Assembly (NCBI GenBank): GCA_009692265.1
Contig: SHZM01000027.1
Span: 1 to 44,266 of the forward strand
Length of the DNA: 44,266 bases
Reading direction: 5' to 3'
Origin: Gammaproteobacteria bacterium
GTDB taxonomy: Bacteria; Pseudomonadota; Gammaproteobacteria; Ga0077536
Shown piece by piece: positions 2,557 to 20,505 of this stretch. The notes under the pieces were generated by a model. It ran no database searches, was not told where the DNA came from, and saw nothing but the letters and a program-made list of their open reading frames with translations. Numbering within the stretch: position 1 is the stretch's first letter; each line of letters starts with the position of its first letter. Position numbers and translations under genes: made by a program.

Positions 2557-2561
2557 GTCCC

Positions 2562-2921: not shown

Positions 2922-2934
2922 TGCCAGACCCTCC

Positions 2935-4464: not shown

Positions 4465-4528
4465 GACACTCTCCACTGGTACTGGTTGCGCTGAATCGAT
4501 GTTTCGTTTGTTGATAACTACTCAAGTG

Positions 4529-4813: not shown

Positions 4814-4822
4814 ACGTGCCCC

Positions 4823-5821: not shown

Positions 5822-5854
5822 CGCGCAACTCTCCCTCGGATTCGGTGTTGCCAG

Positions 5855-6121
5855 CTAGGGTGCTGGTTCTTCGTCGATTTGACCGTCCCACCATTTACGG
5901 CGGTCGCGGTCCACCATGCTGCCCTGTTCGGCGTTCAAGCGCACGGCTTTGTTCGTGACACAAAATTCCTCAAACGCGGCGCGCGGAAGGATCATCTCCA
6001 GGTACAACGTCGGGTCACCGATCGCGAACTGAAACTCAACGAAACCATTGCGGGTGTCATCGGTGATCCGGACGTAGCGCGTTGCTTGATTCAGTCCGAT
6101 GAGGTGCTTGCTAGGCATCAT
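5855..6121 (-). CDS. dmpK: Phenol hydroxylase assembly protein P0
   Basis: Small P0 protein (88 residues), first gene after the sigma-54 promoter. In Pseudomonas, P0/DmpK is not part of the active enzyme but is needed for growth on phenol, with a proposed role in iron incorporation into P3. Two adjacent ATG codons begin the frame, and the Shine-Dalgarno is weak. The predicted transcription start is only about 25 bases upstream, so the leader is short. The family pattern RYVRITDD...GFVEFQF is visible. Confidence 0.88.
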   Translation of the reverse strand: MMPSKHLIGLNQATRYVRITDDTRNGFVEFQFAIGDPTLYLEMILPRAAFEEFCVTNKAVRLNAEQGSMVDRDRRKWWDGQIDEEPAP

Positions 6122-6274: not shown

Positions 6275-7918
6275 TCATTTCATCTGAACCTGCTTCTTCA
6301 AACGATACGCTAGTTGGGGACGCGTTAGGCCGAGTAAACGCGCAGCCGAACTGAGGTTTCCTTCTGAGCGCTGCACTGCCGCGTCCAATAATTGGGTTTC
6401 TAGATCGTCGAGTGCAATGTGCTCGCGCAACAACACCTCGACCAACGCCTCGACCTCGGAGCGCCCGGCACGATTGACGGGGGCGATAGGCCGCAGCGAG
6501 GCTGGCTGCAGGGGGGAAAACAAGTTGGTCGCCTCGATCGCCTCGCCGCTGGCCGTAAGGATCACGCCGCGTTCGATAATGTTCTCGAGTTCGCGGATAT
6601 TGCCGGGCCATTCGTAGTGGATCAGCGCGTCCATCGCGCGCGGGGTAATGCCAGTGATTTTTTTGTCGTGACGAGCCGAGTGCTTATCGATAAACCGCGT
6701 GACTAACAGTGGAATATCGCTGGCGCGATCGCGCAGCGGTGGGACGAGCACCGGATACACATTCAACCGATAGAACAGGTCCGCTCTAAAGACCCCGTCA
6801 CTGACCGCTTCTCGCAAGTTTTTGTTGGTCGCGCAAATCAATCGCACGTTGACCTTGCGGGTCGTGGTGTCGCCAATGCGTTCGAACTCACCTTCCTGGA
6901 TCACTCGCAATAACTTCGCTTGCGCACCGGGGGAAAGTTCTCCGACTTCATCCAAAAACAAGGTTCCGCCATGCGCGCGTTCAAAGCGACCTGGGCGTGA
7001 CTGATTCGCGCCGGTAAACGCGCCTTTTTCGACGCCAAAGAGTTCAGACTCGATCAAGTCCTCGGGGATCGCCGCGCAGTTAACCGCGATGAATGGGGCT
7101 TTCGCGCGCGGGCTCTGTTGATGCAGGTGTCGCCCGAACAGCTCCTTGCCGACGCCGGTCTCGCCTAACAACAATACCGTGACCTGGCTAGCGGCGGCTT
7201 TTCTAATCAGCTCGAAAGCTGCGTTGAAGGCCGGAGCTGTACCGACCAGTTCCAGAGAATGTTGCCCTTCTTGCACCGAGTAGCGCAGGCGCTCGACCTG
7301 GCTTTGTAATTCGAGCAGGCGATCGGCGACCGGATCCGGGCGCAGATACTTCATGTCGCGCTCCGCGTCGCCCCATTCCACTTCAAGTTTCCCGATGATC
7401 CGGCAGCGGCTGTCGCCTTTTGCGACGCATTCGACTTCCCGGCACAACGTCGATTGCCCCATCAACTCGGAGCAATAGCCGCTGGCGTAGCCAACCTGCA
7501 TCCAACACGCAGGTTCCGCCTCGATCCCGAACGCGGCGGCATGCACCTCGGCCTCGAACGAATTTTCCCAAATAAAATCACCGGAAAAATTGCCGCGTTG
7601 AATATCGATTTCGAGCGCGACGATGCTGACGTTAACAATACCTTCCAAGGTATGCAGCTGCGGCCCTAACGCGAGCAATTCGCTATCGGTAGCGTCCGGC
7701 ATTAAACGCCGTGCAAATTCGGCGTCCCGCTTACCCGACGCATAGCCCATGCGCGTAACGACGCCACGCGCGCGGTCGCGACCCAAGGTCTCGATTAGCT
7801 CTTGGCGCAGCGAACCCATGGTCTCGACGTGAACGAGGATCATGCGTTGCGTATCAAGCCAGATCTGGCCGGCTTCGGGGGCGAAATGTAAGCGCGCAGC
7901 AAGAATTTCTGATTTCAT
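6275..7918 (-). CDS. dmpR: Sigma-54-dependent phenol-responsive activator, DmpR/XylR family
   Basis: Effector-sensing transcription activator, 547 residues as drawn. The N-terminal XylR_N plus V4R sensor region (about residues 5-200, with the Cys-rich CREVEC...SRC segment that binds metal in DmpR) is followed by a B-linker, an AAA+ domain (Walker A GETGVGKE, sigma-54 contact loop GAFTGA, Walker B GGTLFLDEV) and a C-terminal Fis-type helix-turn-helix. It is encoded upstream of and co-oriented with dmpK, rather than divergent as in Pseudomonas CF600. The only ATG upstream of the sensor domain lies inside a palindromic repeat, lacks a Shine-Dalgarno, and leaves the N-terminus about 15-20 residues shorter than DmpR. 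The true start is therefore uncertain. Confidence 0.92.
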   Translation of the reverse strand: MKSEILAARLHFAPEAGQIWLDTQRMILVHVETMGSLRQELIETLGRDRARGVVTRMGYASGKRDAEFARRLMPDATDSELLALGPQLHTLEGIVNVSIVALEIDIQRGNFSGDFIWENSFEAEVHAAAFGIEAEPACWMQVGYASGYCSELMGQSTLCREVECVAKGDSRCRIIGKLEVEWGDAERDMKYLRPDPVADRLLELQSQVERLRYSVQEGQHSLELVGTAPAFNAAFELIRKAAASQVTVLLLGETGVGKELFGRHLHQQSPRAKAPFIAVNCAAIPEDLIESELFGVEKGAFTGANQSRPGRFERAHGGTLFLDEVGELSPGAQAKLLRVIQEGEFERIGDTTTRKVNVRLICATNKNLREAVSDGVFRADLFYRLNVYPVLVPPLRDRASDIPLLVTRFIDKHSARHDKKITGITPRAMDALIHYEWPGNIRELENIIERGVILTASGEAIEATNLFSPLQPASLRPIAPVNRAGRSEVEALVEVLLREHIALDDLETQLLDAAVQRSEGNLSSAARLLGLTRPQLAYRLKKQVQMK

Positions 7919-8016
7919 GGGGTCAGAGTCGTTGATTTTAACTGGTTTGCTAAATGGTTAGTTGGCAAGAAATCAACGACTCTGACCCCATGAAATCACT
8001 CTGACCCCATGAAATC
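7911..8016. repeat. 28-bp perfect inverted repeat plus a further direct half copy
   Basis: Arms 7911-7938 and 7970-7997 are exact reverse complements (core CATGGGGTCAGAGTCG), separated by 31 bases. A third, half-length copy (ACTCTGACCCCATGAAATC) follows at 7998-8016. The dmpR ATG lies in the left arm, and the last codons and TGA stop of dmpD lie in the right arm and third copy. The GGGGTCAGAGT core is reminiscent of repeats associated with REP/RAYT-type transposases. Confidence 0.9.
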
Positions 8017-8820
8017 GCTTACCAACTGGTTAAACCTCGCCGCGTGCTCGATCTGAGTCCAATGCCCACAGCGTCCGAAGACATGTAGTTCCGCGTTCGG
8101 GATCAATTCGAACAAGCGCAAGGTACTCGACAATGGGAGGACCCGATCTTCGCGACCGTGAATTAACAAGGTTGGCGCCTGCAACTCGCGCAGCACAACG
8201 TCCGGTGTCGCCAACGCGTCAATCCACCGTTGGCGCGGAGCCGGGAACATCTGGCTGAATGATTCCTGAAAGCCGGGGCGGATACTGGCCTCGTAGCGCA
8301 GTCGCGCGAGCTCATCGGTGACGAGCGAGCGGTCGAAGGCGAAAATATCGAGCAGCTTGCGCATGTTTTCGAGCGACGGGGTGTAGCCCCACGCGGCGTC
8401 AAGCCCCGGGGTCAGTTCAAAGTGAGTGCCGGCGCTCCCCATCAGCACCAGACTCGCGACCCGCTCCGGCGCGCGAGTCGCGAGCGCCAAGGACAGCGCG
8501 CCACCGAAAGAATTGCCGACGAGATGCACTCGGTCAAGCTTCAGTGCATCGAGAAATCCCAGCGCATGCGCGACCCAATTCTCCAACGAATACACTGCGT
8601 TCGCGGGACGCTCGGTAAAGCCAAAACCGGCCATGTCCGGGGCGACGACGCGAAATTTCCGGGCCAACGCCGGCATCGTTAGACGCCAGTTGGCAAAGGC
8701 GCTGACCCCGGCTCCGGAGCCGTGAATCAGCATTACCGGCGCACCGTGGCCTACATCGTGATAATTTGTTTTCAGACCGTGCGCGAGAATTGTTTGCGAA
8801 ATTTCTGGATTGGCGCTCAT
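7996..8820 (-). CDS. dmpD: 2-hydroxymuconic semialdehyde hydrolase
   Basis: Alpha/beta-hydrolase, 274 residues, that cleaves the carbon-carbon bond of meta ring-fission products such as 2-hydroxymuconic semialdehyde, giving 2-hydroxypenta-2,4-dienoate plus formate. The catalytic triad is visible: S104 in GNSFGG, D225 (GREDRVLP) and H253 (CGHW). The N-terminal LIHGSGAGVSAFANW oxyanion segment matches the DmpD/XylF/TodF group. The final four residues and the stop are encoded by the repeat at 7970-8016, so the natural C-terminus may have been altered. It is separated from the other lower-pathway genes (16957-22002) and groups with a DsbA-like gene between two repeat clusters. Confidence 0.9.
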   Translation of the reverse strand: MSANPEISQTILAHGLKTNYHDVGHGAPVMLIHGSGAGVSAFANWRLTMPALARKFRVVAPDMAGFGFTERPANAVYSLENWVAHALGFLDALKLDRVHLVGNSFGGALSLALATRAPERVASLVLMGSAGTHFELTPGLDAAWGYTPSLENMRKLLDIFAFDRSLVTDELARLRYEASIRPGFQESFSQMFPAPRQRWIDALATPDVVLRELQAPTLLIHGREDRVLPLSSTLRLFELIPNAELHVFGRCGHWTQIEHAARFNQLVSDFMGSE

Positions 8821-8853: not shown

Positions 8854-9438
8854 CTAGCGTCGCGCGAGGCGCAACTCGTTCAAGTGTTCGAGGACAAAAT
8901 CGATGCGGTCGTTGCCCCAGAAAATTTGATCATCGATCACAAAGCTCGGTACCCCGATCACGCCTTTGTCCTGCGCTTCTTGCCAGTGCGCGACCAGTCG
9001 TTGCTGGTTTACCTCGGCGTTCACATAGTCCTCGTATTCCGCGACATTGAGGCCGACTGCTTGCGCAACGGCGTTCCGCACCCCTGACAACCCGATGTCA
9101 TTGCCGGTGGCCCACTCGGTGCGCATCATTTCAACGACGTAAGGGCGCAAGACGCCGCGTTCTTCGGCCAGCAACGAACCGACTCCCGCCAACGTCGCGT
9201 CAGTGGTAATCGGTGGCGGCACACACGGAATGCCGAGGCGTCGGCAGTGGCGTGCCAGATCCTGTCGCGCAATCGGGATTTTCACTTTCGCGCGATCCGG
9301 CGGTGAACGCCCATCCCAGCCCCCAAAGGGCCGCCACAATAGGTGAGTGTGAAAGTCGTCCACGATGGACCACAGTGTTTTCGAAGCGAGATAGCAATAC
9401 GGGCTGCGGAAGTGGAAATAAAGCGCTACTGATTTCAT
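8854..9438 (-). CDS. DsbA-family protein, 2-hydroxychromene-2-carboxylate isomerase-like
   Basis: Thioredoxin-fold protein of 194 residues related to HCCA isomerase and kappa-class glutathione transferase. It has an N-terminal FRSPYCYLAS motif and the GVPSFVIDDQIFWGNDR segment with the cis-proline characteristic of the family. In naphthalene pathways the family performs a glutathione-dependent isomerisation; in a phenol cluster the substrate is unknown, perhaps an isomerisation or glutathione-linked step on a ring-fission or epoxide intermediate. The only reasonable ATG (codons ATG AAA TCA) lies within a copy of the ACTCTGACCCCATGAAATCA repeat and has no Shine-Dalgarno. It is followed 33 bases later by dmpD. 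Confidence 0.8.
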   Translation of the reverse strand: MKSVALYFHFRSPYCYLASKTLWSIVDDFHTHLLWRPFGGWDGRSPPDRAKVKIPIARQDLARHCRRLGIPCVPPPITTDATLAGVGSLLAEERGVLRPYVVEMMRTEWATGNDIGLSGVRNAVAQAVGLNVAEYEDYVNAEVNQQRLVAHWQEAQDKGVIGVPSFVIDDQIFWGNDRIDFVLEHLNELRLARR

Positions 9439-9470
9439 GGGGTCAGAGTCCTGATTTCAGGGGGTCAGTG
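9431..9470. repeat. Two direct copies of the GGGGTCAG repeat
   Basis: GATTTCATGGGGTCAGAGTC (9431-9450) and a variant TGATTTCAGGGGGTCAGTG (9452-9470). The first copy contains the start codon of the DsbA-like gene; the second contains the stop codon and last codons (CTG ACC CCC TGA) of the SnoaL-like gene. With 7911-8016 it brackets the dmpD plus DsbA-like pair. Confidence 0.85.
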
Positions 9471-9897
9471 GATACCCGAACGCGGCATACGGGTACTCGG
9501 CGATCTCATGCACCGCCACCCCGCGTTGAGCTGGGCACGCGTAATAAGCACGAATCTCGATTATTAATCCATTCTCATCGAATCGATACCATTCGTCGCC
9601 CCGCAAAACCGCTTGGATTTTTGGTTTGAAATGCGTCCACTCGATCACTGCCTGACGTGTTGCCTCGTCGCCAATAAAACTATCGACAGTCCAGGACGAA
9701 CCCCATTCGCCCACACACCGACACCAGCAGTCGGCAATGGCTTCACTTCCGCGTAATGCCCCAAACGGACTACCACTTGGAAAGTAATGCACGGCATCAG
9801 GCGTGAAATAGCGCATCAGTCGCGGTTTATCGGCGGCGCTGCACGCACCGAAATAGGTCCGAATCGTTGCGAGCATTTGCTCCTTACCGAGACTCAT
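9457..9897 (-). CDS. SnoaL/NTF2-like protein of unknown function
   Basis: A 146-residue NTF2-fold protein of the SnoaL-like group (N-terminal helix pair, then YFTPDAVHYFPSGSPFG and a C-terminal sheet with EWYRFDENGLIIEIRAYY). Such proteins are often isomerases, hydratases or small-molecule-binding partners in aromatic or polyketide clusters; no specific reaction can be assigned. The last residues and the stop are contributed by the repeat at 9452-9470. It sits between the second catechol dioxygenase and the DsbA-like gene, so a role on a ring-fission intermediate is plausible but inferred. The start is uncertain; only a weak purine-rich stretch precedes the ATG. Confidence 0.75.
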   Translation of the reverse strand: MSLGKEQMLATIRTYFGACSAADKPRLMRYFTPDAVHYFPSGSPFGALRGSEAIADCWCRCVGEWGSSWTVDSFIGDEATRQAVIEWTHFKPKIQAVLRGDEWYRFDENGLIIEIRAYYACPAQRGVAVHEIAEYPYAAFGYPLTP

Positions 9898-9957: not shown

Positions 9958-10887
9958 TCATGTCACGACGTTGAAAAAGCTCGGTCGCGGTTGGTTATCA
10001 ATCGCAAAAGCCGCGTGCCCAAGTTGGGTGGTATCCCAGGTCAGGTGAGGGTGGTCTGGATAATGGATATACCCGCCTGAAAACACTTCGTTGCGATTGC
10101 CCGACGGATCATAGAAATAAATCGTCGCCCCGCGCGTGATGCCGTGGCGAGTTGGACCCACATCAACCGAAATATTGTGTTTCCCCATGATATCGCCGGC
10201 ATGGTAGACATCGGCCACCGAGTCTACGTAGAACGACATGTGATGGAATTTTCCGGGAGCTTCGTTTAACGCGAACGCAATATCGTGCGGCTTGTTCGAG
10301 CAACATAGAAAGACGCTGAGCTGCATGCCGCTGTCGTTGTCGATCAATTCCTCGCCTAGATCGAAATTCAGTACGTCGATAAAAAACTTTGCTGTCTCGG
10401 TAATCTTCGGGCCCGCGAGCAAGACGTGATCGAGTCGCGTGACACGCATGCCGCGAATGACACCTTCGTCCGGCAGCACCCCGGGATTGCGGGTTGGCAG
10501 GCCATTGCCGATCCGCTCCTTCTCCGCGTAGAGCTGCATCGTATGCCCACTCGGCAGTTCAAACTGAATACGCCGGCCACTCCGTGGGTAAGCGCCAGCC
10601 GCGAGGCGTGTCACCGTGAATCCATACGCGCCAATTTTTTCTTCGAGCTCGCGCAAGGTCGGTTCGTCGTGGACTTTATATGCGACGTAATCCAGCCCCG
10701 CCTTGTCAGCTTCGCGGATCACCACACTGTGATGGTCGTGCTCATCCCACGCTTTGTAGTAGACCCGATCCTTCTCGCGCAGAGTTTCGTGCAAACCGAT
10801 GTACTGACCGTAGTGCCTGGTCGCCGCCTCAAGATCGAGCACTCGTACCGCCACTTCACCTATCCGTAATACGCCTCGAATCGCCAT
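9958..10887 (-). CDS. Catechol 2,3-dioxygenase (copy 2)
   Basis: Second extradiol dioxygenase of the XylE class, 309 residues. The iron ligands are H154, H216 and E267, with conserved H201, H248 and Y257. AGGAG lies seven bases before the ATG. It differs substantially from copy 1 in the N-terminal half and in the substrate-lining segments, so it is not a recent duplicate; it probably covers a different range of substituted catechols. It sits in the upstream part of the operon with the HAD, MetE-like and PpsAB genes, far from its classical place after dmpQ. Confidence 0.94.
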   Translation of the reverse strand: MAIRGVLRIGEVAVRVLDLEAATRHYGQYIGLHETLREKDRVYYKAWDEHDHHSVVIREADKAGLDYVAYKVHDEPTLRELEEKIGAYGFTVTRLAAGAYPRSGRRIQFELPSGHTMQLYAEKERIGNGLPTRNPGVLPDEGVIRGMRVTRLDHVLLAGPKITETAKFFIDVLNFDLGEELIDNDSGMQLSVFLCCSNKPHDIAFALNEAPGKFHHMSFYVDSVADVYHAGDIMGKHNISVDVGPTRHGITRGATIYFYDPSGNRNEVFSGGYIHYPDHPHLTWDTTQLGHAAFAIDNQPRPSFFNVVT

Positions 10888-10944: not shown

Positions 10945-11601
10945 TCAGGCCGCAGGGCTCAGCGCGTTTCGCTCGATGTCGGCCCACGCCTGCGCGGGTC
11001 GCCCAACGTCAAACCGCAGAGAAACCATCCCGACCCGCTCACCACCGGCCACGTTGTGTGGCTGATCGTCGACGAACAGAGTCTGTGCGGCAGTACACCC
11101 TAGACCCGACAGCGCTTGATGGTAGGCTTCAGGGGCCGGTTTCATTACACCATACGACACGTCGGTAAACGAATCAATTTCACGGAAAAAGCTGATTTTT
11201 TCCTGCCACTCAGCACCGACGAACGCCGCCAAATCGTTAGTCAGGATCCCTACGCGCAGTCCGGCGGCACGGACTTTTCGAATGCTTGCCACCGCCTCGG
11301 GGCGGATCACGGCGTCCTCGGCCCGATCCACGCACCACCGCATGTAATCACGGGCGGTAAACGTCCGCCCGATGAGGACGCTCAATTCTTCGGCCCGGCG
11401 ATCCCAATATGCGCGCTCCGACAACTCCCCCGCCCAAATCGCGCGCCACAGCGGATCAGTGCTGGGATCTACCGGCCCGAGCCACGTCAACGTGTGTTGG
11501 GCCAAACCCAACTCGCGCTCCACTGTGCGATGCAGCTCCATTGGTAGGCGCAAACACACGCCGCCAAAATCGAGCAGCAGGGCGCGATACTTGTAACTCA
11601 C
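10945..11601 (-). CDS. HAD-superfamily hydrolase
   Basis: A 218-residue haloacid-dehalogenase-like hydrolase. The nucleophile is D11 in LLLDFGGV; the usual second aspartate is replaced by Gly, as in the YihX/epoxide-hydrolase-N-domain-like group. Motif II is GILTND, the lysine is in YGVMKPAPEAY, and the acidic motif is LFVDDQPHNV. Phosphatase activity is the usual role, and next to phenylphosphate-synthase-like genes an aryl-phosphate substrate is an attractive guess, but this is inference. The start is GTG, eight bases after the MetE-like stop, with overlapping spacing that supports translational coupling. No signal peptide. Confidence 0.8.
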   Translation of the reverse strand: MSYKYRALLLDFGGVCLRLPMELHRTVERELGLAQHTLTWLGPVDPSTDPLWRAIWAGELSERAYWDRRAEELSVLIGRTFTARDYMRWCVDRAEDAVIRPEAVASIRKVRAAGLRVGILTNDLAAFVGAEWQEKISFFREIDSFTDVSYGVMKPAPEAYHQALSGLGCTAAQTLFVDDQPHNVAGGERVGMVSLRFDVGRPAQAWADIERNALSPAA

Positions 11602-11608
11602 GAAAACG

Positions 11609-12763
11609 TTATTTCCACAGCCGCTTGGTTGCGAGCGCCGCGCCCTCGCTCAACGCCGCGAGCTTGGCCAAGGCGACCGTCGGATGTACTTCCGGCGCAA
11701 ACGATGCACGCGACGAAAAACCGCAGTCAGCCCCCGCGATCACATTTTCGCGCCCTACCAGCTTGGCGTAATTGACCGCGTAGTCCGCGATCATCTCAGG
11801 ATGTTCGACATAGTTTGTCGCGTGCCCCAGCAAGCCCGGAATCAGAATTTTGCCGGGGGCCAACTTAACCGTCTCCCACAGATGCCATTCGTGATAGTGA
11901 CGCGGATTCGCGACCTCGAATGAATAGGCACCGGCGTTGATCGAAAGCATGAAATCGACCACCTCGCTCATGGGTATGTCGTTCAAGCGCGGCCCGTGAT
12001 TGAGACCGTAGCAGGTGTGCAACCGGATTTTTTCTTCGGGTATTCCGCGCAGCGCATGATTCAGGACTTCCACATGTTGTGCCGCGTCGCGGCGTCTCGC
12101 GGCGTGCTCCAGGGTCGGATCACTCAACATCTCAATCAACCAGGGATCGTCCACTTGCAAGATAAATCCCGCGTTGACGATGCCGAGATATTCCTCCCGC
12201 ATCGCCTCCCCGACCGCGACGTAGTAATCCTGATCGCTCGGATAGAACTCGTTACGACCGAAGCCACGGGGACTGATCGATGGCAAAAATGCTTCGACCA
12301 CTGACTGCTCCTGCAGCGCATCGCGGAGGTTGGCAATATCTGTCTCAAGTGCCGACTGCCCTTCGTAGCGGATCTCGCCACGACAGACCAGAACGCGTAA
12401 CGGTGAGACAGCGGCGGAGTACTTATTGAAATAGCCGTGGTAGTAATCCGGAAAATCCGCGACTTCCTTTTTCCACGACTCCGGCATGATCGGTTCGTCG
12501 TTCGCGGCTTCAAACCCGGTTAGGCGATCCTTGACGTAGTTCAGAAACGCGACTTTGCCCTGTTCACCGTCCGTGACGATATCGATCCCCGCTTTAACTT
12601 GTTCGCGCACGCACTCGGCGACCGCGTCGCGTACTTGTTGTTCAAAGTGAGCATGATCGTACGGTCGGCCGGCTTCTTTCTCGCGCATGGTCTCCAGCAG
12701 CGCATGTGGGCGCGCGAGACTGCCCACATGGGTCGTAAGCATACGGTCACTGCTTCGTTGCAT
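11609..12763 (-). CDS. MetE-like zinc-dependent thiol methyl/alkyltransferase
   Basis: A 384-residue protein of the cobalamin-independent methionine synthase C-terminal family (TTHVGSLARP start, TIM barrel). The zinc site is complete: H249 and C251 (LHTCYG), E283 and C347 (AGADCGFSS). The length fits stand-alone members, which include methionine-synthase-like proteins of unknown substrate and epoxyalkane:coenzyme M transferase; full MetE is about twice as long. The ATG is preceded by GAGG at good spacing; a TTG two codons earlier is less likely. It is encoded directly after ppsB and before the HAD gene, so it is likely catabolic rather than methionine-biosynthetic. Its substrate cannot be assigned from sequence. 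Confidence 0.8.
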   Translation of the reverse strand: MQRSSDRMLTTHVGSLARPHALLETMREKEAGRPYDHAHFEQQVRDAVAECVREQVKAGIDIVTDGEQGKVAFLNYVKDRLTGFEAANDEPIMPESWKKEVADFPDYYHGYFNKYSAAVSPLRVLVCRGEIRYEGQSALETDIANLRDALQEQSVVEAFLPSISPRGFGRNEFYPSDQDYYVAVGEAMREEYLGIVNAGFILQVDDPWLIEMLSDPTLEHAARRRDAAQHVEVLNHALRGIPEEKIRLHTCYGLNHGPRLNDIPMSEVVDFMLSINAGAYSFEVANPRHYHEWHLWETVKLAPGKILIPGLLGHATNYVEHPEMIADYAVNYAKLVGRENVIAGADCGFSSRASFAPEVHPTVALAKLAALSEGAALATKRLWK

Positions 12764-12772
12764 CCTCAATCC

Positions 12773-13825
12773 TCATTTCTTGTTAAACACGTATTTATTG
12801 GCCGCGCTCAGGACATCCCATTGGGGAGTGGCTTTCGCTGTGGTGACCTGGACGGTCTCGGGACGCGCCTGAACGATGGTGATCGGCTCACCTGCTCGCC
12901 GCTGTTGGTCCAATACCCATTCGACATCCACGGGATAATCGTAGTGATCCTCGATCTGTTTGACGGCAGTCACGATCGCGGCAAGTTGTTCGTCGTCGAG
13001 ACTCGCGCGCTCACGCAGCCGAGCAGGCATCGGTGCTTCGACGACCCGACCGTGTTGATAGTCAAACGTCGACACCACGGTTTTAGAATTGATCTCGCGC
13101 CGCAGAACTCGACCATCGCTCTTGTCGATTTCGAAATGATCGGGAGTAACCAGCCCCTGCACGATGGCTTCACCCCAGCCCCAGCTACTTTCGACGACGA
13201 TTCGATCGCGCTTGCCAGTCACCGGATGAATTGAAAACGCGACGCCGGAGGCGCGGGCGTTGACGAGTTCTAGAACACCGACTGCCATGGGCGAATCGTG
13301 GTGCGATAAGCCGCGCTCCCGGCGATAGCCAAGCGCACGCGGCGTAAACAGACTCGCCCAGCATCTGCGCACGCCGTCGATAACTTGCGCGGCACCAGTC
13401 AAGCCTAAATAGGTTTCGAACTGCCCCGCGAAACTCGCGTCGCTGGCATCCTCCCCAGTCGCCGAGGACCGCACGGCGACCGGCAGGGCCAGCGCGGTGC
13501 GCCGATCGCAGAGTTCCTCGTAAGCCTCGGTGATCGCGGTTGCGAGGGTTGAATCGAGCGAATGCAGATCAAACAGGTGTTGAATGTGATTCGCATGTTC
13601 GGTCAATACCGCGATATCGTGTGGATCCTTGATCCGCGCAATTTCGGCGTCCAATGCCTGTGCCAGTCCTGTTCCAGCGAGGTGCGTCTTGAACGCGTGG
13701 GTCGTCACCACGAAACCCGTGGGAACCGTCAACCCCGCGCGTGCGAGTTCCGCCAGGCGGGTAATCTTCGAACCCGCAAGCGGCAGCGAATCATCTGTTA
13801 AGGATTCCAGCCAGCATACGGTCAT
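12773..13825 (-). CDS. ppsB: PEP-synthase N-domain protein, phenylphosphate synthase subunit B-like
   Basis: A 350-residue stand-alone PEP/pyruvate-dikinase ATP-binding domain (ATP-grasp): the GSKITRLAEL...GLTVPTGFVVT start, VRSSATGEDASDASFAGQ nucleotide segment, SGVAFSIHPVTG, and the C-terminal DVEWVLD...ITIVQARPET metal-binding strand. In Thauera, PpsB catalyses ATP-dependent phosphorylation of the swivelling-histidine subunit PpsA, which then phosphorylates phenol; the CreHI pair of Corynebacterium does the same for 4-cresol. It overlaps ppsA by four bases (ATGA), so the two are translationally coupled. The lack of a fused His domain rules out ordinary PEP synthase. The substrate being phenol is inferred from context. 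Confidence 0.82.
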   Translation of the reverse strand: MTVCWLESLTDDSLPLAGSKITRLAELARAGLTVPTGFVVTTHAFKTHLAGTGLAQALDAEIARIKDPHDIAVLTEHANHIQHLFDLHSLDSTLATAITEAYEELCDRRTALALPVAVRSSATGEDASDASFAGQFETYLGLTGAAQVIDGVRRCWASLFTPRALGYRRERGLSHHDSPMAVGVLELVNARASGVAFSIHPVTGKRDRIVVESSWGWGEAIVQGLVTPDHFEIDKSDGRVLRREINSKTVVSTFDYQHGRVVEAPMPARLRERASLDDEQLAAIVTAVKQIEDHYDYPVDVEWVLDQQRRAGEPITIVQARPETVQVTTAKATPQWDVLSAANKYVFNKK

Positions 13826-15546
13826 TCGCGGATCACCCGCACGATGCCTTTACCACCGTCGACTTCCACGGTGTCGCCAGTTTTGATCATCATCGTCGCG
13901 GTGCCGACCCCGACCACGCATGGGATGCGGTATTCGCGCGACACGATCGAGGCATGCGCCAAGGTGCCGCCGCCGTCACACACACAGGCGGCGATTTTGC
14001 CGAAGCACGGCGTCCAGTTTGGCGAAGTCGACTCGCACACGAGAATTTCACCGGGCTCGATCCGATGCAGTTCGTCGGCCGTGAACAACACCCGCGCGCG
14101 ACCGCGAACGAGGCCGGACGACGCCGCGACCCCCACGAGGATATCCACCTGCTTGCCCGCGTTCCGGATCCCCTCGAAGAAGTGATGATGCAGCCCGAAA
14201 ATCTCGATCAACACCGGATCATTGACATGCTCCGGAATCGTGCCAAGCACCTTCGGCATTTGGGGACGGCGTTGATACCAGTAGTCGTAGTAGTCGCGTC
14301 GGTCTTTGATAATTCCGCGCAAGGATCCCCAGGTCCGCGTGCCGTTACAGAGACCGCGAAGCTCTGGCCAGAACAGAAAGCAGGTGTCGTCATTGCGCTC
14401 GGCACCGGCCGCCTCGCCAATCGCCAACGCCGCGCGGCGCAACGGCAAGGTGGAGCGGAGATCGATCAGAAAATTATGCTCGTCGTTCCACCACGCAAAA
14501 TTCGCATGCCGCACAGACTCCAGGCCGGCGTTAAAGGCTTCCACTTCGGCCCGTGAGAGTTGCGAACGCGCCTGCTCCACCGCGGCTTCCCGTTCGTCGA
14601 TCGCGCCGGCACGGGCGTGGTCAAAATCAAAATCGTGCGGCTTTTGCAGAAAGGTGCGGATGGTGCCGAGCGGCGGAATTGGATCTTCCAACCACGACGG
14701 CAGGTAGACATCGCAGGCACCTTCGGTGCGATAGCCGTAGACGCCCAGGAACTCATCGAACTTACCGAGCCAGGTCTGCGCTGGACCGCCTGCACGCTTG
14801 AGCGCCGCGAGAATATTTTCCGGCTCGTTGGCGGCGAAGATGTCGGTGATCCCCAGGCGACGGGCTTCTGCCGTGACCTTCCACAGCTCGCGATCGGTCT
14901 CCAGAATTTTGTTGTCGTAACCCTGACAATACTTGCCAATCTCGGCCGGATCGATCCCAAGCTCCTGGCACAGCCCACGGAAACCGATGTAATTCACCAA
15001 CAGGGGATACATTAATTCGAAATGTATTTCGAAGCTTCGCTTGAAGAAACGACGTGCTTCAAACAGCGGCTGCCACAGCTCGCGCAACGGGCGACTGGCT
15101 ATATTGAGGTTCTCAAAATGATGCAGCGCCGAGGTCAGTTCCTCCACGCGTTCAGCCCAGATTTCCGGAAAGCGTTGCAGGATCGGCGGCAGATTGCGCG
15201 CCATCCGCGCGCCGCGCTGGGCTACTTCGTACTCGGAGCGGACGTCGATCCCGTTGCCATAAATATGGGTTCCCGCAATCCGGCACGCGACGCCATAGCC
15301 GGGTGGCAAGGGCAAGGTCTCGGCGGCAAGTTGGGAACCCCAGGTGTACCCGTCTTCACACCAGATCAACCCCAATGGGGTCATCCCACGCGGCCAATGA
15401 AAGTCCAGAAACCAGAAGCGCGATTCATCCTCTCTGTTAAAAGTCCGAAACGGTTCAATCGACCAGGCGGCGTGTTCGAATCCGGGTTTGAACCCCGGGT
15501 ACCATTCATCGGTGACAAATTCGTCGAGTGCGACCAATTCGGACAT
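13822..15546 (-). CDS. ppsA: PEP-utilising swivelling-domain protein, phenylphosphate synthase subunit A-like
   Basis: A 574-residue protein from the ATG at 15546, chosen for GGAG eight bases upstream; an in-frame upstream start would add 24 unlikely residues. The C-terminus carries the mobile phosphohistidine domain with GGGTLAHASIVSREY, catalytic H531, followed by IPCVVG. The large N-terminal region has no standard PEP-synthase PEP-binding barrel, and fits the layout of Thauera PpsA, where the equivalent histidine carries the phosphoryl group transferred to phenol. It is the first gene of the minus-strand phenol module, divergent from the CBS-domain gene. No phenylphosphate carboxylase genes are visible in the window. 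Confidence 0.82.
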   Translation of the reverse strand: MSELVALDEFVTDEWYPGFKPGFEHAAWSIEPFRTFNREDESRFWFLDFHWPRGMTPLGLIWCEDGYTWGSQLAAETLPLPPGYGVACRIAGTHIYGNGIDVRSEYEVAQRGARMARNLPPILQRFPEIWAERVEELTSALHHFENLNIASRPLRELWQPLFEARRFFKRSFEIHFELMYPLLVNYIGFRGLCQELGIDPAEIGKYCQGYDNKILETDRELWKVTAEARRLGITDIFAANEPENILAALKRAGGPAQTWLGKFDEFLGVYGYRTEGACDVYLPSWLEDPIPPLGTIRTFLQKPHDFDFDHARAGAIDEREAAVEQARSQLSRAEVEAFNAGLESVRHANFAWWNDEHNFLIDLRSTLPLRRAALAIGEAAGAERNDDTCFLFWPELRGLCNGTRTWGSLRGIIKDRRDYYDYWYQRRPQMPKVLGTIPEHVNDPVLIEIFGLHHHFFEGIRNAGKQVDILVGVAASSGLVRGRARVLFTADELHRIEPGEILVCESTSPNWTPCFGKIAACVCDGGGTLAHASIVSREYRIPCVVGVGTATMMIKTGDTVEVDGGKGIVRVIRE

Positions 15547-15709
15547 GTACAGGCTCCAAAGGGGATGATTCGGCGAACGGGACGATAGCCGGAGTAAGCG
15601 ACATCGACAAGCCGGCAATGCAGTACGACGAATTACCGCGCCGCAAGGTGGCTATTCGGCGCGCGGCGGCATACCTTTAATAGTGACCGATTACGCAGGA
15701 CTACGCGCC

Positions 15710-16306
15710 ATGCACTCTCACTATCCACCGTTAAAGCCTGTGACCTTAAACGCGACTACCCGGCTCCCCGACTCGCAGTCCGCGCAAAAGAAATTAACCC
15801 TGGATTCCGCGGCCGTTGAATCAATGACCGATCTGACCCTCGTTTCCGCGGCGAGTATCGAGGCGACGCGGACTATCGATGAGGCAAATAACTTGATGTT
15901 GACGCGCGGGGTGCGCATGCTTTTTGTGCTGGCGGCTAATCGCGATTTAGCGGGGCTGGTGACCGCCAACGATGTGATGGGAGAGAAGCCAATGCGCATC
16001 GTGCAGGCAAATAACGTGTTGCACAAAGAAGTGTTGGTTGGCGACATCATGACGGCGGCTAAAGATCTCGAGGTGCTCGAATACGCTGACGTGAAAGGCG
16101 CGTGTCTCGGCAACATCGTCACCACCTTGCACAACGCCGGGCGCCAGCACGCGTTAGTGGTCGCGCGCTCGGGGGACGGCCCCTACATTCGGGGGATTTT
16201 CTCCGCGGTGCAGATCGCGCGCGACCTTGGAATCGTGGTACAGACCCCGGCCATCTTCAAAACGTTCGCGGAAATCGAAGCTGTAATGCAGCGCCACGCA
16301 CGCTAA
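15710..16306 (+). CDS. Two-CBS-domain protein, possible PpsC partner
   Basis: About 198 residues from the ATG at 15710 (AGGA upstream); an in-frame GTG at 15683 lacks a ribosome site. Two CBS motifs occupy residues of roughly 45-95 and 105-185 (SIEATRTIDEANNLML; ...VRGIFSA-like RGIFSAVQIARDLG at the end). CBS pairs bind adenine nucleotides. In Thauera a CBS protein, PpsC, stimulates phenylphosphate synthase. Here the gene is divergent from ppsA with about 160 bases between, which would suit that role. However, the sequence also resembles a generic proteobacterial CBS protein of similar size, so the assignment stays open. Confidence 0.75.
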   Translation: MHSHYPPLKPVTLNATTRLPDSQSAQKKLTLDSAAVESMTDLTLVSAASIEATRTIDEANNLMLTRGVRMLFVLAANRDLAGLVTANDVMGEKPMRIVQANNVLHKEVLVGDIMTAAKDLEVLEYADVKGACLGNIVTTLHNAGRQHALVVARSGDGPYIRGIFSAVQIARDLGIVVQTPAIFKTFAEIEAVMQRHAR

Positions 16307-16956: not shown

Positions 16957-17757
16957 CTAGACAAAGCGCATCCGCACGGCGCCCAAGCTTTGATAATGCA
17001 CCACCACCACGTCACCCGCGTGCACGTGGATCGCTGCGGTGACTCCTCCGGTCATCACCATGCACCCGGCCGGGATCTCGGTGTTGAGTTCGGCGCGCTG
17101 GTTCGCGAGCATCACGACTGCTTCGAGTGGATTGCCCAGTACTGCGGCACCCGCTCCGACTTCAGCGACTTGACCATTGCGGGTCAGCACGATGCCTTCG
17201 GTCAGTAAATCAATTTCACTTAACCGCCGGCTGCGACCACCGACCACGTAGCCCGCCGCCGACGTGTTATCGGCGACCACGCTCATGATGTCGAATTTGA
17301 AGTCGGCGAAACGCGAATCGATGATTTCAATCGCCGGTAGCACAAAATCAATTGCCGCCGCAGCCTGTTGCACAGTGCAGTTCGGGCCTCTAAGCGCGGT
17401 CTTCATCACCATCGCGATCTCGGCTTCGATGCGCGGGTGAATGTAGCGGTTGACGGGGATTTCGGCACCATCGCCGTAAGCGCCGTCGTCCGTGATGAAA
17501 CCATGTAGGGATTCGGACACCCCCATCTGCAGCATCTTCGCACGCGAGGTCAGGCCCATCTTGAGTCCGGTAACCTTGATGCCGCGGGCTTCCATCCGTG
17601 CGCGCAGCGCGTTCTGCACGGCGTAAGCATCGCCCAATTTCATCTGCGGATAGTCGGCCGTGAGCATGCCGATCGCGATCCGATCGCGGGCCGCGTTATC
17701 GACTCGCTCGGCGAGCAAGGTGTGAGCTTTGGTGTTCAGAGCGCATTCGTTAAGCAT
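16957..17757 (-). CDS. dmpH: 4-oxalocrotonate decarboxylase
   Basis: Decarboxylates 2-oxohex-3-enedioate (4-oxalocrotonate) to 2-hydroxypenta-2,4-dienoate; Mg-dependent, fumarylacetoacetase-like fold. Assigned DmpH rather than DmpE by the [13 protein letters not shown] segment; the metal/active-site region EAEIAMVMK and DSRFADFKF follow. The ATG at 17757 overlaps the end of dmpG by eight bases and gives 266 residues; a longer frame starts 16 codons earlier inside dmpG and is unlikely. In Pseudomonas DmpH and DmpE form a complex. Last gene of the lower operon; convergent with the peroxiredoxin gene, 38 bases away. Confidence 0.92.
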
Positions 17758-18790
17758 CGACGAGATTCCTTTGGGCTTGTTGTAGTTCCAGCGCGACTTC
17801 TTCAATCAGATCTTCCTGGCCCCCGACTGTTTTACGCCGCCCCATCTCGGCCAGGATATCGCGTGACGAGACCCCATACTTAGCTGCCGCGCGTTGCGCG
17901 AAGAGCAGGAATGTGGAATAAACCCCGGTGTAGCCTATCAGCAAGGAATCGCGATCAAGTCGGATCTGCCGATCCATGATCGGCAATACACGCTCTTCCG
18001 CCACATCCATAATCTTGTAGAGATCGACATTGGTCGCGATCTGCATGCGTTTACACACCGCGACGAAGGCCTCCAGCGGCGTGTTGCCCGCACCCGCGCC
18101 CAGGCCCGCCGCCGAGCCATCGATCCGAGTCGCGCCTGCCTGCACCGCCACGATCGAATTCGTCACCCCGAGCGCGAGATTGTGGTGGCCATGAAAGCCA
18201 ATTTCGGTTTCCGGCCGCAGTACGCGTCGCAGCGCTGAGATACTCGCGGTGACATCTTCCGGCAACATGTAGCCGGCCGAGTCCGTGCAATAAATGCAGT
18301 TCGCGCCATAGCCTTCCATCTTCTTGCCCTGCTCGGCCAAGCCCGCCGGATCGATCATGTGCGCCATCATCAAGAAGCCAACCGTATCGAGTTTCAGCTC
18401 TTGGGCACGTTTGATGTGCTGCTCGGAAACGTCGGCTTCGGTGCACAGGGTCGCGACCCGCACGGTATGAATGCCGCATTCATACGCGATTTGTAGATCC
18501 TCCACTGTCCCGATGCCTGGGATCAGCAGGACAGAGACTTTCGTGTTTTTTAACGCTGGAATCACATGGCGAAGGTACTGCTCGTCGCTGAAGGCAGGGA
18601 AGCCGTAGTTAATCGACGCACCGCCAAGGCCATCACCATGGGTCACCTCTATATAGTCGACCCCGGCCTCATCCAGGCCGGTCGCAATTGAATGCATTTG
18701 TTCCAGCGAGATCTGGTGCTGCTTTGGATGCATGCCGTCGCGCAGGCACATGTCGTGTACTTTAACCTTGAGCTGAGAGGTACTCATCAT
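17750..18790 (-). CDS. dmpG: 4-hydroxy-2-oxovalerate aldolase
   Basis: Cleaves 4-hydroxy-2-oxovalerate to pyruvate and acetaldehyde; 346 residues. The HMG-CoA-lyase-like barrel starts with [14 protein letters not shown] (metal-binding Asp) and includes [10 protein letters not shown] with the metal-binding histidines. The C-terminal DmpG-type communication domain contacts the dehydrogenase DmpF to channel acetaldehyde. The ATG overlaps the dmpF stop by four bases (ATGA), and the gene end overlaps dmpH by eight, indicating tight translational coupling. Confidence 0.96.
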
Positions 18791-19704
18791 GCAGCTTCCG
18801 TCCGAACACTCGGAAAACTCAAGGTCCCTTCCAACAGGCGCTGCGCGAACATTTCCCCGGTTTGCAACGCGGCCGCCGTCATGATGTCGAGATTGCCGGC
18901 GTACTTCGGCAGGTAATCTCCAAGCCCCGCGACTTCGAGAAACACTGAGACCCGCTTGCCGTCGAAGACGGGATTTTGTTTGAGCTTGTAGCCCGGCACG
19001 TAGCGCTGCACCTGCGCGACCATCGCTTTAATCGACGCGGTGATCCTGGCCTCGTCTGGTTCGCCTTCTGTTAGACAGTGCACGGTATCGCGCATTAAGA
19101 GGGGCGGCTCGGCCGGATTTAAAATGATGATCGCCTTGCCCTTCTTCGCGCCGCCTACCCGCTCCAAACCGAGTGCGGTCGTACGCGTAAACTCATCGAT
19201 ATTCTTGCGCGTACCGGGGCCGGCCGACTTCGACGCGACCGTCGCGATGATCTCGGCGTACGCGACTGGCTGCACCTGGGATACGGCGGCGACGATTGGG
19301 ATCGTCGCCTGCCCACCGCAGCTCACCATGTTCACGTTCGCCGTCTGGCTTTGCATGTGTTGTTCAAGATTCACCGGAGGGACACAGAACGGCCCGATTG
19401 CCGCCGGCGTCAAATCGATCATGAACACACTCTGCGCGAGCGTTTTGCGGCTGTTCTCGGCGTGCACATACGCCGAGGTTGCATCAAACGCGATGCGGAT
19501 CGCATCGGCTTTGAAATGCGGAAGCGCCGCGTCGAGTCCTTCGTGAGTCGCTTTCAAACCGGCGGCGTGCGCTTTCGCAAGCCCGTCGGAGTCTGGATCC
19601 ACCCCGATCATCCATACCGGATTCAGCCAGTCGCTGCGTAACGCCTTGTACATGAGGTCGGTGCCGATGTTGCCGGAGCCGATTAACGCGCAATTGATCT
19701 TCAT
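18787..19704 (-). CDS. dmpF: Acetaldehyde dehydrogenase (acylating)
   Basis: Converts acetaldehyde, NAD and CoA to acetyl-CoA; 305 residues, normal length. The N-terminal Rossmann motif is GSGNIGTD; the catalytic Cys is C129 in SCGGQATIP. It works as a channelling complex with DmpG, encoded directly after it with a four-base overlap. The GAGG Shine-Dalgarno lies in the short gap after dmpE. Not to be confused with MhpF, its close homologue; the dmpC-E-F-G-H context decides. Confidence 0.95.
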
Positions 19705-19713
19705 ATCAGCCTC

Positions 19714-20502
19714 TTAAACGAATTTTGCGGTCAAACGGCCGAGGCCACCCACTGCCAATTCCATTTCGTCGCCGGCGACAATCGGAATTAGGGGCACCAA
19801 CGAGCCCGACAAAATAGTCTCACCCGCCTTTAAGCCAACGCCGTGGCGACCCAGCACGTTGGCGAGCCATGTCACGCAATTGATCGGTGACCCGAGGGCC
19901 GCGGCGCCCGCACCCGTCGCGATTAGTTCGCCGTTCTTCCACAACACCATGCCACAGGTGACGAGATCGACTGTATGCGGATCAACCAGCTCGGTGGACA
20001 CCACAAACATCCCGCACGAGGCGTTGTCGGCGACGGTGTCCTGGATTTTGATCTTCCAATCGCGAATGCGCGAATCGACAATTTCGTAACACACGGCAAT
20101 CCCAGCCGTTGCCGCTAGTACGTCGGCATTGGTCACGCCAGGCCCCTGTAGATCACGCTTTAGTACAAACGCGATCTCGCCTTCGGCGCGCGGCTGAATT
20201 AATTCGCGGCTAATCGGAATCGGTTCCCCGGCCTTGCATTGCATGCGATCGGTCAGGAAGCCGTAGTCCGGCTGATCGACGTTGAGCATCGTTTGCACCG
20301 CGCGGCTGGTGGCACCGATTTTCTTGCCCACGATTTTCTCGCCCGCTGCTTCACGGCGTTTGAGAATACCGAGTGAAATCTGATAAGCCTCATCCTGGGT
20401 GAGTTCCGGCTCGCGTTCCGTTAACGGGGCAATCACTTGCCGAGTGCGTAGGGCTTGATAAATCTCTTCGGCGTAGGCGTCAAGTTTGTTTAAGGCAACC
20501 AT
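19714..20502 (-). CDS. dmpE: 2-oxopent-4-enoate (2-hydroxypenta-2,4-dienoate) hydratase
   Basis: Hydrates 2-hydroxypenta-2,4-dienoate to 4-hydroxy-2-oxovalerate; 262 residues. Paralogous to dmpH in the same operon but assigned DmpE by the GATSRAVQTMLNVDQPDYGFL-type segment and by EGEIAFVLKRDLQGPGV, which are typical of the hydratase branch. The ATG lies three bases after the dmpC stop. The product feeds directly to DmpG. Confidence 0.93.
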   Translation of the reverse strand: MVALNKLDAYAEEIYQALRTRQVIAPLTEREPELTQDEAYQISLGILKRREAAGEKIVGKKIGATSRAVQTMLNVDQPDYGFLTDRMQCKAGEPIPISRELIQPRAEGEIAFVLKRDLQGPGVTNADVLAATAGIAVCYEIVDSRIRDWKIKIQDTVADNASCGMFVVSTELVDPHTVDLVTCGMVLWKNGELIATGAGAAALGSPINCVTWLANVLGRHGVGLKAGETILSGSLVPLIPIVAGDEMELAVGGLGRLTAKFV

Positions 20503-20505
20503 GAG

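Follow-up and report, generated by a model that had tools for sequence, protein, structure and literature searches.

The locus described here raises the question of what a pair of genes resembling those of phenylphosphate synthase does at the head of a gene run that leads to an aerobic phenol hydroxylase. Few phenolic dikinases have been characterised, those treated in PMC12167813 being PpsAB, CreHI and HpeHI, and the reason why such pathways start with a phosphorylation is called unclear by the authors of that work. The window, i.e., the whole stretch of 44,266 nucleotides that was analysed (contig SHZM01000027.1 of a gammaproteobacterium), includes the following features:

198..1118, minus strand: catechol 2,3-dioxygenase no. 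2 (TIGR03211, 438.7 bits)
1147..1485, minus strand: [2Fe-2S] ferredoxin, DmpQ-like (Fer2)
1489..6121, minus strand: dmpKLMNOP multicomponent phenol hydroxylase (Pfam families of phenol hydroxylase or reductase)
6275..7918, minus strand: DmpR/MobR-type sigma-54-dependent regulator (XylR_N, V4R, Sigma54_activat, HTH_8)
7996..8820, minus strand: alpha/beta hydrolase of the DmpD type, which may act on a ring-cleavage product (PF00561)
8854..9438, minus strand: DsbA-family thioredoxin-fold protein (PF01323; 84% to the copy in genome G005)
9457..9897, minus strand: SnoaL-like protein, no role assigned (PF12680)
9958..10887, minus strand: catechol 2,3-dioxygenase no. 1 (TIGR03211, 387.7 bits, cut-off 320.2)
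10945..11601, minus strand: HAD-family putative phosphatase with a DxGG motif (PF00702, Hydrolase, E 2e-13)
11609..12769, minus strand: putative zinc enzyme of the cobalamin-independent methionine synthase II family, MetE-C-like (PF01717)
12773..13825, minus strand: PpsB/HpeI-like ATP-grasp subunit, 350 aa (PF01326, PPDK_N, E 9e-100)
13822..15546, minus strand: PpsA/HpeH-like subunit, 574 aa, with a substrate-binding domain and a C-terminal swivel domain (PF00391)
15683..16306, plus strand: CBS-domain protein, 207 aa, divergent from ppsA (PF00571, E 2e-4, which is under the gathering threshold)
16957..22002, minus strand: lower meta pathway DmpH-G-F-E-C, in the transcription order C, E, F, G, H

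Open reading frame calls and Pfam matches confirmed a tight run of PpsA, PpsB, MetE-like and HAD genes, in which ppsB and ppsA overlap by 4 bases and the MetE-like gene (Meth_synt_2, E 3e-12) lies 3 bases from ppsB; the run continues into the catechol 2,3-dioxygenase, then DmpR and then dmpKLMNOP. A co-oriented run of this kind had been described in an earlier sequence-only reading, whose genes were borne out but which had left out the MetE-like gene at 11609-12769. The dmp products belong to the families Phenol_hyd_sub (K), Phenol_Hydrox (L and N), MmoB_DmpM (M), Phenol_monoox (O) and Fer2/FAD/NAD (P), and the best solved match of DmpN is the phenol hydroxylase PhN (E 3e-232). The best NCBIfam model for the regulator is MobR (NF041906), whose cut-off of 999 is not reached at 630 bits, and the best models for DmpH (341.8 bits) and DmpE (389.4 bits) each score slightly below the cut-off. 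The divergent CBS-domain gene and a peroxiredoxin-like ORF separate the dmpC-E-F-G-H genes from ppsA.

In G005, a genome of the same genus, the module is kept as a single co-oriented run, with dmpL to dmpP orthologues at 74-91%; no counterpart of the DmpD-type hydrolase was found in the G005 cluster, and the window copy shares 61-64% identity with those close to PpsAB in mycobacteria (four loci). The dN/dS values were 0.058 for PpsA, 0.122 for PpsB, 0.045 for MetE and below 0.084 for HAD, with dS high or saturated, and substitution in these four proteins looks purifying. Because G005 keeps the run, dN/dS looks purifying and the linkage recurs across phyla, the arrangement goes beyond chance. 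Regarding regulation, the sole sigma-54-like site in a fitting place lies upstream of dmpK (6172-6157, one mismatch). None was found upstream of ppsA, and a sigma-54 promoter driving this gene was rejected, given that matches in the window were no commoner than in shuffles; a scan for sigma-70 promoters and terminators likewise gave nothing exceeding shuffles. Antisense high-GC ORFs gave spurious conserved families that were ignored; part of this set, e.g., c17 and c60, could be genuine, without a Pfam match.

The two dikinase subunits and their relatives

PpsA carries a PEP-utilizers mobile domain at residues 496-567 (Pfam, E 9e-23) and contains GGGTLAHASIVSREY, with residue 531 as the putative phospho-histidine; H531 (in CDGGGTLAH) is invariant in 40/40 aligned sequences. 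The motif of two-component phenolic dikinases is T/S-x-x-GG-x-x-x-H (PMC12167813), of which PpsA keeps the glycine pair and the histidine, the T/S position being occupied by C523, invariant in the same 40-row alignment. A Foldseek search with the AlphaFold model of PpsA (pLDDT 91) placed rifampin phosphotransferase (RPH) at the top, with a TMq of 0.60-0.67 for the top four of its six entries, and PPDK and PtsI matched weakly (TMq at most 0.17). According to this model, the predicted RPH-like fold spans most of PpsA, which is a separate subunit with an RPH-like substrate domain and a C-terminal swivel His domain. PpsB, in turn, is a stand-alone PPDK_N subunit, as in two-component dikinases, and its conserved residues are intact: R119, S120, S121, E125, D126, E302, Q319 and R321 are identical in 64/64 loci and P322 in 60/64. 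The swivelling His domain and the separate ATP-grasp protein, both noted before from the sequence, were recovered as PF00391 (with H531) and PF01326.

In a tree from a fast LG+G4 search, which raised long-branch warnings, and built without C. glutamicum CreH, R. rhodochrous HpeH and Thauera PpsA, the window PpsA falls in a separate clade of 67 rows (SH-aLRT 100). Its sister clade (SH-aLRT 100) is of the known type and has 8 rows, with three members beside ppc genes, two that are cre-like (a label coined in the present analysis for Rhodococcus clusters) and three of unlabelled context. The fork uniting both clades has moderate support (SH-aLRT 84), and both lie apart from the fused RPH-like outgroups. 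Thus PpsA stands beside the known-type phenolic kinases and not among them. The window protein is 25-30% identical to the ppc- and cre-linked dikinases, in contrast to HpeH, CreH and PpsA, which share about 45% identity with one another (PMC12167813). Since identity to the known type is this low, carrying its specificity over to the window PpsA is not warranted, and from its placement we read the window PpsAB as part of an uncharacterised clade of two-component dikinases. The proposed homology to PpsA/PpsB holds at the level of the superfamily and fails for the Thauera-type clade; a grouping with non-aromatic phosphotransferases, which had been named as a possible refutation, was not seen, the clade being sister to aromatic dikinases.

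A Thauera-type phenylphosphate synthase was ruled out by the tree together with the carboxylase searches: UbiD (PF01977) has no match in the 95%-complete genome, in agreement with the carboxylase-free locus first reported, and ppcA, ppcB, ppcD, UbiD and UbiX have none at E 1e-8 across 69 loci of relatives. The linked UbiD-type carboxylase (PpcA/PpcB) that goes with the anaerobic enzyme is therefore missing, and so are the P450 and HD-domain protein that accompany the dikinase in the Cre pathway, neither being reported among the genes scanned from 198 to 25562. In size the CBS protein of the window comes close to PpsC (about 24 kDa), but it matches the one encoded in the pps cluster of Azoarcus weakly (22% over 68 aa, E 0.055); its assignment as a demonstrated PpsC was dropped, and it stands as a possible PpsC. 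Neither of these two CBS proteins gave a match at E 1e-8 in any of the 69 loci, among them G005. A description of the window PpsA clade was not found among the best-ranked papers. In PLSDB, the window PpsA matched 233 records, all below 60% identity and the best-placed at 26.9%, and a Pseudonocardia PpsA had no match at E 1e-60; plasmids of this collection as carriers of the clade were rejected on these low-identity or missing matches.

Recurrence of the aerobic linkage and the accompanying proteins

Relatives were gathered by a contig scan with two peptide patterns, which is not exhaustive; of the 69 loci, 66 were tallied, L092, L096 and L101 being dropped for a PpsA match that failed the coverage and identity rule. 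Meta-cleavage labels were given by tblastn (E 1e-10, 45% query coverage), with interchangeable DmpE and DmpH labels, and the label DmpL plus DmpN required more than 34% identity of both. When the tally is confined to the 47 loci flanked by 9.6 kb or more in each direction, 34 have two or more types of meta-cleavage gene in their neighbourhood (33 at stricter identity), 27 the HAD family, 29 the Rieske oxygenase and 5 DmpL plus DmpN. Over the 66 loci, a LigXa-type Rieske oxygenase is present in 36, DmpL plus DmpN in 6 and both in none; L061, outside these six, has a DmpN (56%) at the locus edge. In 18/66 loci, part of which have short flanks, no meta-cleavage gene is in view; in certain others a generic aldehyde dehydrogenase is the sole one. 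These counts are not independent because Pseudonocardia and Actinomycetospora account for 30/66 relatives. Ten host genomes of 4.9-8.0 Mb hold 17 copies of DmpG (E at most 1e-40), therefore about 0.6% of 22-kb stretches would contain it by chance; it is found in 23/69 PpsAB loci, always with at least 44% identity. Runs of PpsAB, HAD and meta genes occur in a Marinimicrobia MAG, Nocardia and G005, and the linkage of PpsAB to meta-cleavage genes recurs in three phyla, which upholds the connection of the dikinase with an aerobic phenol/meta-cleavage pathway that the sequence-only reading had drawn from this single locus.

The linked Rieske enzyme carries a LigXa domain at its C-terminus, and its nearest relative among solved structures is phthalate 4,5-dioxygenase. 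No gene of this type lies near the window module, and close relatives in G000 and G005 were rejected, the best candidates showing 28-33% over short stretches; a truncated window ORF is 39% identical to the linked Rieske gene over 81 residues.

HAD phosphatases usually have the motif D-x-D, with an Asp two residues past the nucleophile, from which D-x-G departs. The window protein has the nucleophile Asp, T/S, Lys and acidic motif IV of a HAD phosphatase (D11, T/S121, K154 and D178 in 37/37 linked copies; the last Asp in 36/37, with one gap), and at nucleophile +2 a Gly in 37/37 instead of the general acid/base Asp. Its best solved match is the glucose-1-phosphatase YihX, which departs from Asp at this position as well. 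The locus copy is the best genome-wide match in 10/10 genomes, picked for having a local HAD; for ten loci without a nearby HAD, a match was found in 5/10 genomes and a strong one (E 1.7e-32) in 1/10, and two weak matches (G419, G422) may sit a few kb beyond the fetched stretch. HAD is not in view in 30/66 loci, including 7/10 from Mycobacteriaceae. From these data, the HAD protein looks like a dedicated partner of the dikinase, in line with the release or processing of the phosphate first suggested for it; HpeD sets a precedent, being a phosphatase of the HAD family that acts downstream of a dikinase, with NagD as a listed homologue (PMC9618137).

The MetE-like protein is found in 10/69 loci, an extra copy in L039 falling below the coverage rule. 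Residues H251, C253, E285 and C349, which from MetE chemistry we take to be zinc ligands, are present in 10/10 linked copies, and in the seven of these ten loci that were tested, in genomes chosen for having the protein, the locus copy is the best genome-wide (7/7). Counterpoints to the explanation favoured below are C523 in place of T/S, the Gly at nucleophile +2, the low identity to the known type, the uneven make-up of the counts and the loci with no meta-cleavage gene or no HAD in view.

Possible roles of the dikinase

The two-part enzyme probably attaches phosphate to phenol-like molecules. The explanation that we favour, with roughly even credence, is that PpsAB is a two-component small-molecule dikinase of an uncharacterised clade that serves aerobic meta-cleavage, the HAD protein removing the phosphate; it draws on the subunit architecture, the conserved catalytic residues, the separate clade, the linkage in three phyla and the locus-tied HAD. 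PpsB would bind ATP, release AMP and phosphate and load H531 of PpsA with a phosphoryl group, which the swivel domain would deliver to a phenolic substrate held in the N-terminal domain of PpsA. The resulting aryl phosphate would be trapped in the cell and bear an anionic handle; an oxygenase, here the diiron phenol hydroxylase and in most Pseudonocardiaceae relatives the LigXa-type Rieske enzyme, would together with HAD yield catechol for meta-cleavage by the adjacent catechol 2,3-dioxygenase. A phenol as the substrate and the hydrolysis of an aryl phosphate by HAD are inferences, and oxygenation may come before or after dephosphorylation. Phosphorylation would seem superfluous if the phenol hydroxylase accepts phenol directly. 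A more specific version, which we consider rather unlikely, is that the oxygenase of either type, or the MetE-like protein, acts on the aryl phosphate itself, the phosphate being lost or removed by HAD before meta-cleavage, in at least three phyla.

LigX/VanA-type Rieske demethylases need an anionic group on the substrate. A route in which PpsAB phosphorylates guaiacol-type phenols, the Rieske or MetE-like enzyme demethylates them and HAD frees catechol would accord with the LigXa domain and phthalate dioxygenase kinship of the linked Rieske, with the ties of MetE-like and HAD to PpsAB loci and with the conserved zinc ligands; nevertheless, we consider it unlikely, since this Rieske is missing near the window module and has no close relative in G000 and G005, MetE-like occurs in so few loci, and a MetE-type aryl O-demethylase was not found among the best-ranked literature matches. 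The substrate could also be an enol-type ring-cleavage product or downstream intermediate, e.g., a 2-hydroxymuconate derivative: lower-pathway genes are linked as strongly as any hydroxylase, and in L035 PpsAB adjoins DmpE-F-G-(DmpE/H-like)-C-C23O-HAD, with DmpL, DmpN and Rieske unmatched within 10 kb on each side. However, the acceptor domain matches RPH, nothing resembling a PEP-synthase substrate domain was matched, and the nearest sister clade holds phenol kinases, which makes this quite unlikely.

The role first proposed, a true phenylphosphate synthase that traps or activates phenol at low oxygen and feeds the aerobic hydroxylase, is compatible with the dikinase architecture and the dmp linkage, but PpsA lies outside the ppc-linked clade, the genome has no UbiD match, and nothing seen in the cluster points to low oxygen. 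Most relatives are actinobacteria, and Pseudonocardia, Actinomycetospora and Mycobacterium, which host the majority, are aerobes; we regard this role as very unlikely. That a detoxifying or antibiotic-modifying RPH-like kinase sits in the cluster by happenstance is hardly credible: RPH is indeed the closest solved fold, but the meta-cleavage linkage spans three phyla, HAD is tied to the locus and the subunits are split, as in catabolic dikinases.

Comparison with known systems

The recurrence of the dikinase/meta-cleavage partnership in very different bacteria points to an undescribed handling of aromatic compounds. This clade, with its meta-cleavage genes, tied HAD and one of two oxygenase types, offers a direct test system that could tell whether phosphate acts as a trap, gives the oxygenase a handle or is a leaving group, and it may reveal new routes for lignin-derived phenols. 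The hydroxyphenylethanone kinase HpeHI of Rhodococcus rhodochrous GD02, with its phosphatase HpeD, likewise has separate ATP-grasp and swivel/substrate subunits, an RPH-like fold, a phosphatase partner and an aerobic pathway (PMC12167813, PMC9618137); in contrast, the Hpe route uses a biotin carboxylase and leads to vanillate or 4-hydroxybenzoate instead of meta-cleavage. CreHI, acting on 4-cresol in Corynebacterium glutamicum, shares the aerobic, phosphorylation-first catabolism of phenolics (PMC12167813, PMC9618137). The cre-like Rhodococcus clusters, however, have P450, SDR, HD-domain and aldehyde dehydrogenase genes, and their PpsA belongs to the other clade. The PpsABC-PpcABCD system for anaerobic phenol degradation (Thauera/Aromatoleum; a plasmid of Azoarcus sp. 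KH32C) resembles the window in its two-subunit dikinase and nearby CBS protein, whose match to the Azoarcus one is weak, and differs in its UbiD-type carboxylase, PpsA clade and anaerobic setting. RPH shares the fold of the substrate-binding and swivel domains, but it is a single chain with an antibiotic substrate. Finally, in aniline dioxygenase systems a glutamyl tag is attached before Rieske dioxygenation. If oxygenases do act on the aryl phosphate, PpsAB would follow the same tag-first logic in at least three phyla, with phosphate as the counterpart of the glutamyl group, although the tag is different and the tagging enzymes are unrelated.

The dikinase gene run and its conservation

The sequence-only reading had placed ppsA- and ppsB-like genes at the head of a run passing through a HAD hydrolase gene and a catechol dioxygenase gene to DmpR and dmpKLMNOP. 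This arrangement was borne out, with a MetE-like gene to be added to the run, so that 10945-15546 contains four genes:

15546-13822, minus strand, ppsA-like gene (first)
13825-12773, minus strand, ppsB-like gene (second)
12769-11609, minus strand, MetE-like gene (third)
11601-10945, minus strand, HAD gene (last)

Their spacing is minimal, with a 4-base overlap, a 3-base gap and a 7-base gap, in that order. After the HAD gene the same run continues with catechol 2,3-dioxygenase (C23O), SnoaL, DsbA-type and DmpD-type genes, and beyond these are found DmpR, dmpKLMNOP, a ferredoxin gene and a second C23O gene. Upstream of ppsA, a CBS-domain gene in divergent orientation and a peroxiredoxin-like ORF intervene before dmpC-E-F-G-H.

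This ORF (16379-16918, plus strand; AhpC/TSA family, E 4e-29) has an in-frame TGA at the position expected for the catalytic Cys (FTGG-TGA-TAECK); since the genome also carries a tRNA-Sec scoring over the Rfam cut-off, the ORF likely encodes a selenoprotein. The hairpin 3' of the TGA was no better than shuffles. Elsewhere in the window, a short Rieske/VanA-type ORF of 139 residues (38857-39276, plus strand) is apparently a fragment.

The genome of the window comprises 3.4 Mb and is 95% complete. Among five other genomes of the genus, a close PpsA was found only in G005 (88%), where the order on one strand is dmpC-E-F-G-H-ppsA-ppsB-metE-HAD-C23O-dsbA-dmpLMNOPQ-C23O. The dN/dS values were 0.045-0.122 for ppsA, ppsB and metE, below 0.084 for the HAD gene, and 0.028-0.062 for the dmp genes measured, all of them rough because dS was high or saturated throughout. 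Across 369 genomes of the class (E 1e-30), this PpsA was present in genomes G000 and G005 only, and distant PpsA proteins (27-30%) occurred in three more.

Neighbourhoods of PpsA relatives

A collection of 84,980 genomes was scanned for PpsA relatives, which gave 69 loci, mostly from actinobacteria, but also from a Marinimicrobia MAG, Rhodobacterales, G005 and delta/myxobacterial MAGs; tallies were made on the 66 with an adequate PpsA match. At least one meta-cleavage gene was in view in 48/66 loci and at least two types in 38/66; a HAD gene was seen in 36/66, a LigXa-type Rieske oxygenase also in 36/66, and DmpL together with DmpN in 6/66. When only loci with flanks of 9.6 kb or more on each side were considered, these counts were 42, 34, 27, 29 and 5 of 47, respectively. 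The Rieske oxygenase never occurred together with DmpL and DmpN (0/66), and 24 loci had neither. PpsB lies within 160 bases of PpsA on the same strand in 55 of the 64 loci having it. DmpG was found in 23 of the 69 loci; by chance it would be expected near PpsA in about 0.6%, given that ten host genomes (4.9-8.0 Mb) contained 17 matches in total.

Given that Pseudonocardia and Actinomycetospora contribute 30/66 loci, independent support comes from recurrence across groups: the linkage recurs in Gammaproteobacteria, Marinimicrobia, Pseudonocardiaceae, Mycobacteriaceae and Nocardiaceae, and that with phenol hydroxylase appears on three separate branches (the window and G005; Nocardia L078; Mycobacterium L049, L055, L099 and L102). 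Counting against it, meta-cleavage genes were not in view at Nocardioides, Streptomyces, Nanopelagicales and other loci, some with short flanks, and at the Nonomuraea, Amycolatopsis and Rhodobacterales loci the sole such gene is an aldehyde dehydrogenase of 34-41% identity.

The four mycobacterial loci with phenol hydroxylase, as well as the mycobacterial L052, have lower meta genes and no HAD; their PpsB is 35-40% identical to that of the window, as compared with 45-59% in the remaining loci (except L091, 39%, and L034, 73%), perhaps reflecting a swapped or fast-evolving ATP-grasp subunit. In some other mycobacterial loci the module is accompanied by a long pyridine-nucleotide disulphide oxidoreductase (L050, 701 residues; L058 and L061) and/or a PhaC-like protein (L050 and L053), and L058 and L061 carry a diiron monooxygenase set just 26-32% identical to Dmp. 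In Rhodobacterales L075, L088 and L094, PpsB is 6-7 kb away from PpsA on the same strand; in L075 the scanned genes in between encode a GMC oxidoreductase and a branched-chain-type ABC transporter. A Pseudonocardiaceae MAG (L046) has both dikinase clades close together, i.e., a PpsAB pair of the window's clade and a second pair with a PpsA sharing about 50% identity with that of Azoarcus, along with Rieske, IclR, HAD, MetE-like and two C23O genes.

The HAD and MetE-like partners

Ten genomes were selected because their locus has a HAD gene, and in all ten the locus copy was the best whole-genome match to the HAD of the window; of ten selected for its absence, five had no match and one had a strong match elsewhere. 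No HAD was in view at 7/10 Mycobacteriaceae loci. The 37 linked HADs have all retained the nucleophile Asp, the T/S, the Lys and acidic motif IV, the second Asp of which is present in 36, with one gap. All 37 have Gly at +2 from the nucleophile; as aryl phosphates carry a good leaving group, an acid at this position may not be needed.

The four putative Zn ligands are kept in 10/10 MetE-like proteins, and in seven of seven genomes tested because their locus contains the gene, that copy was the best genome-wide. Pseudonocardia dioxanivorans CB1190 had not been picked on this basis, and its best copy (65%) is found some 4.4 kb past the fetched end; two further genomes searched had none. MetE-like relatives also occur on plasmids, with 28 of 79 plasmid records from Klebsiella.

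A sister clade of phenolic dikinases and its possible role

In BLAST comparisons, the window PpsA is 25-27% identical both to PpsA from ppc clusters (the Azoarcus sp. KH32C plasmid; genome G049) and to those of cre-like Rhodococcus clusters, and up to 30% identical to the known type in separate class-wide alignments; the known-type proteins compared here share 42-72% identity. In a tree of 81 rows, the window PpsA falls into a clade of 67 sequences and eight known-type sequences make up another (SH-aLRT 100 each), and the branch uniting them has a support of 84. The window PpsAB belongs to a clade that is sister to the two-component phenolic dikinases, placed in an aerobic meta-cleavage setting. 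No description of this clade was recognised among the best-ranked matches of the literature searched.

Over most of its length, the AlphaFold model of PpsA (mean pLDDT 91) aligns with rifampin phosphotransferase: TMq is 0.60-0.67 for the four best entries, at an identity of about 19%, and 0.47-0.48 for two mutant entries; PPDK and PtsI are weak matches (TMq at most 0.17). The same structural picture is described for HpeH in PMC12167813. The putative phospho-histidine H531 is invariant in 40/40 aligned PpsA, and eight ATP-grasp positions in 64/64 PpsB. The window clade has an invariant Cys at a motif position where known members have T/S.

The absence of a carboxylase, noted from the sequence alone, held up: no UbiD match was found in the genome of the window, which rules out carboxylation as in Thauera as far as 95% completeness allows. 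At the 69 loci of PpsA relatives, ppcA, ppcB, ppcD, UbiD, UbiX and CBS gave no match at E 1e-8. We propose that PpsAB would phosphorylate a phenolic substrate via H531 at the expense of ATP, the phosphate serving as a trap and a handle; oxygenation and dephosphorylation by the HAD protein, in either order, would then lead to meta-cleavage. The MetE-like enzyme, and the LigXa-type Rieske oxygenases of the relatives, make methoxyphenols candidate substrates. A precedent for such a scheme is HpeHI with HpeD (PMC9618137), and CreHI is a further precedent in which phosphorylation comes first.
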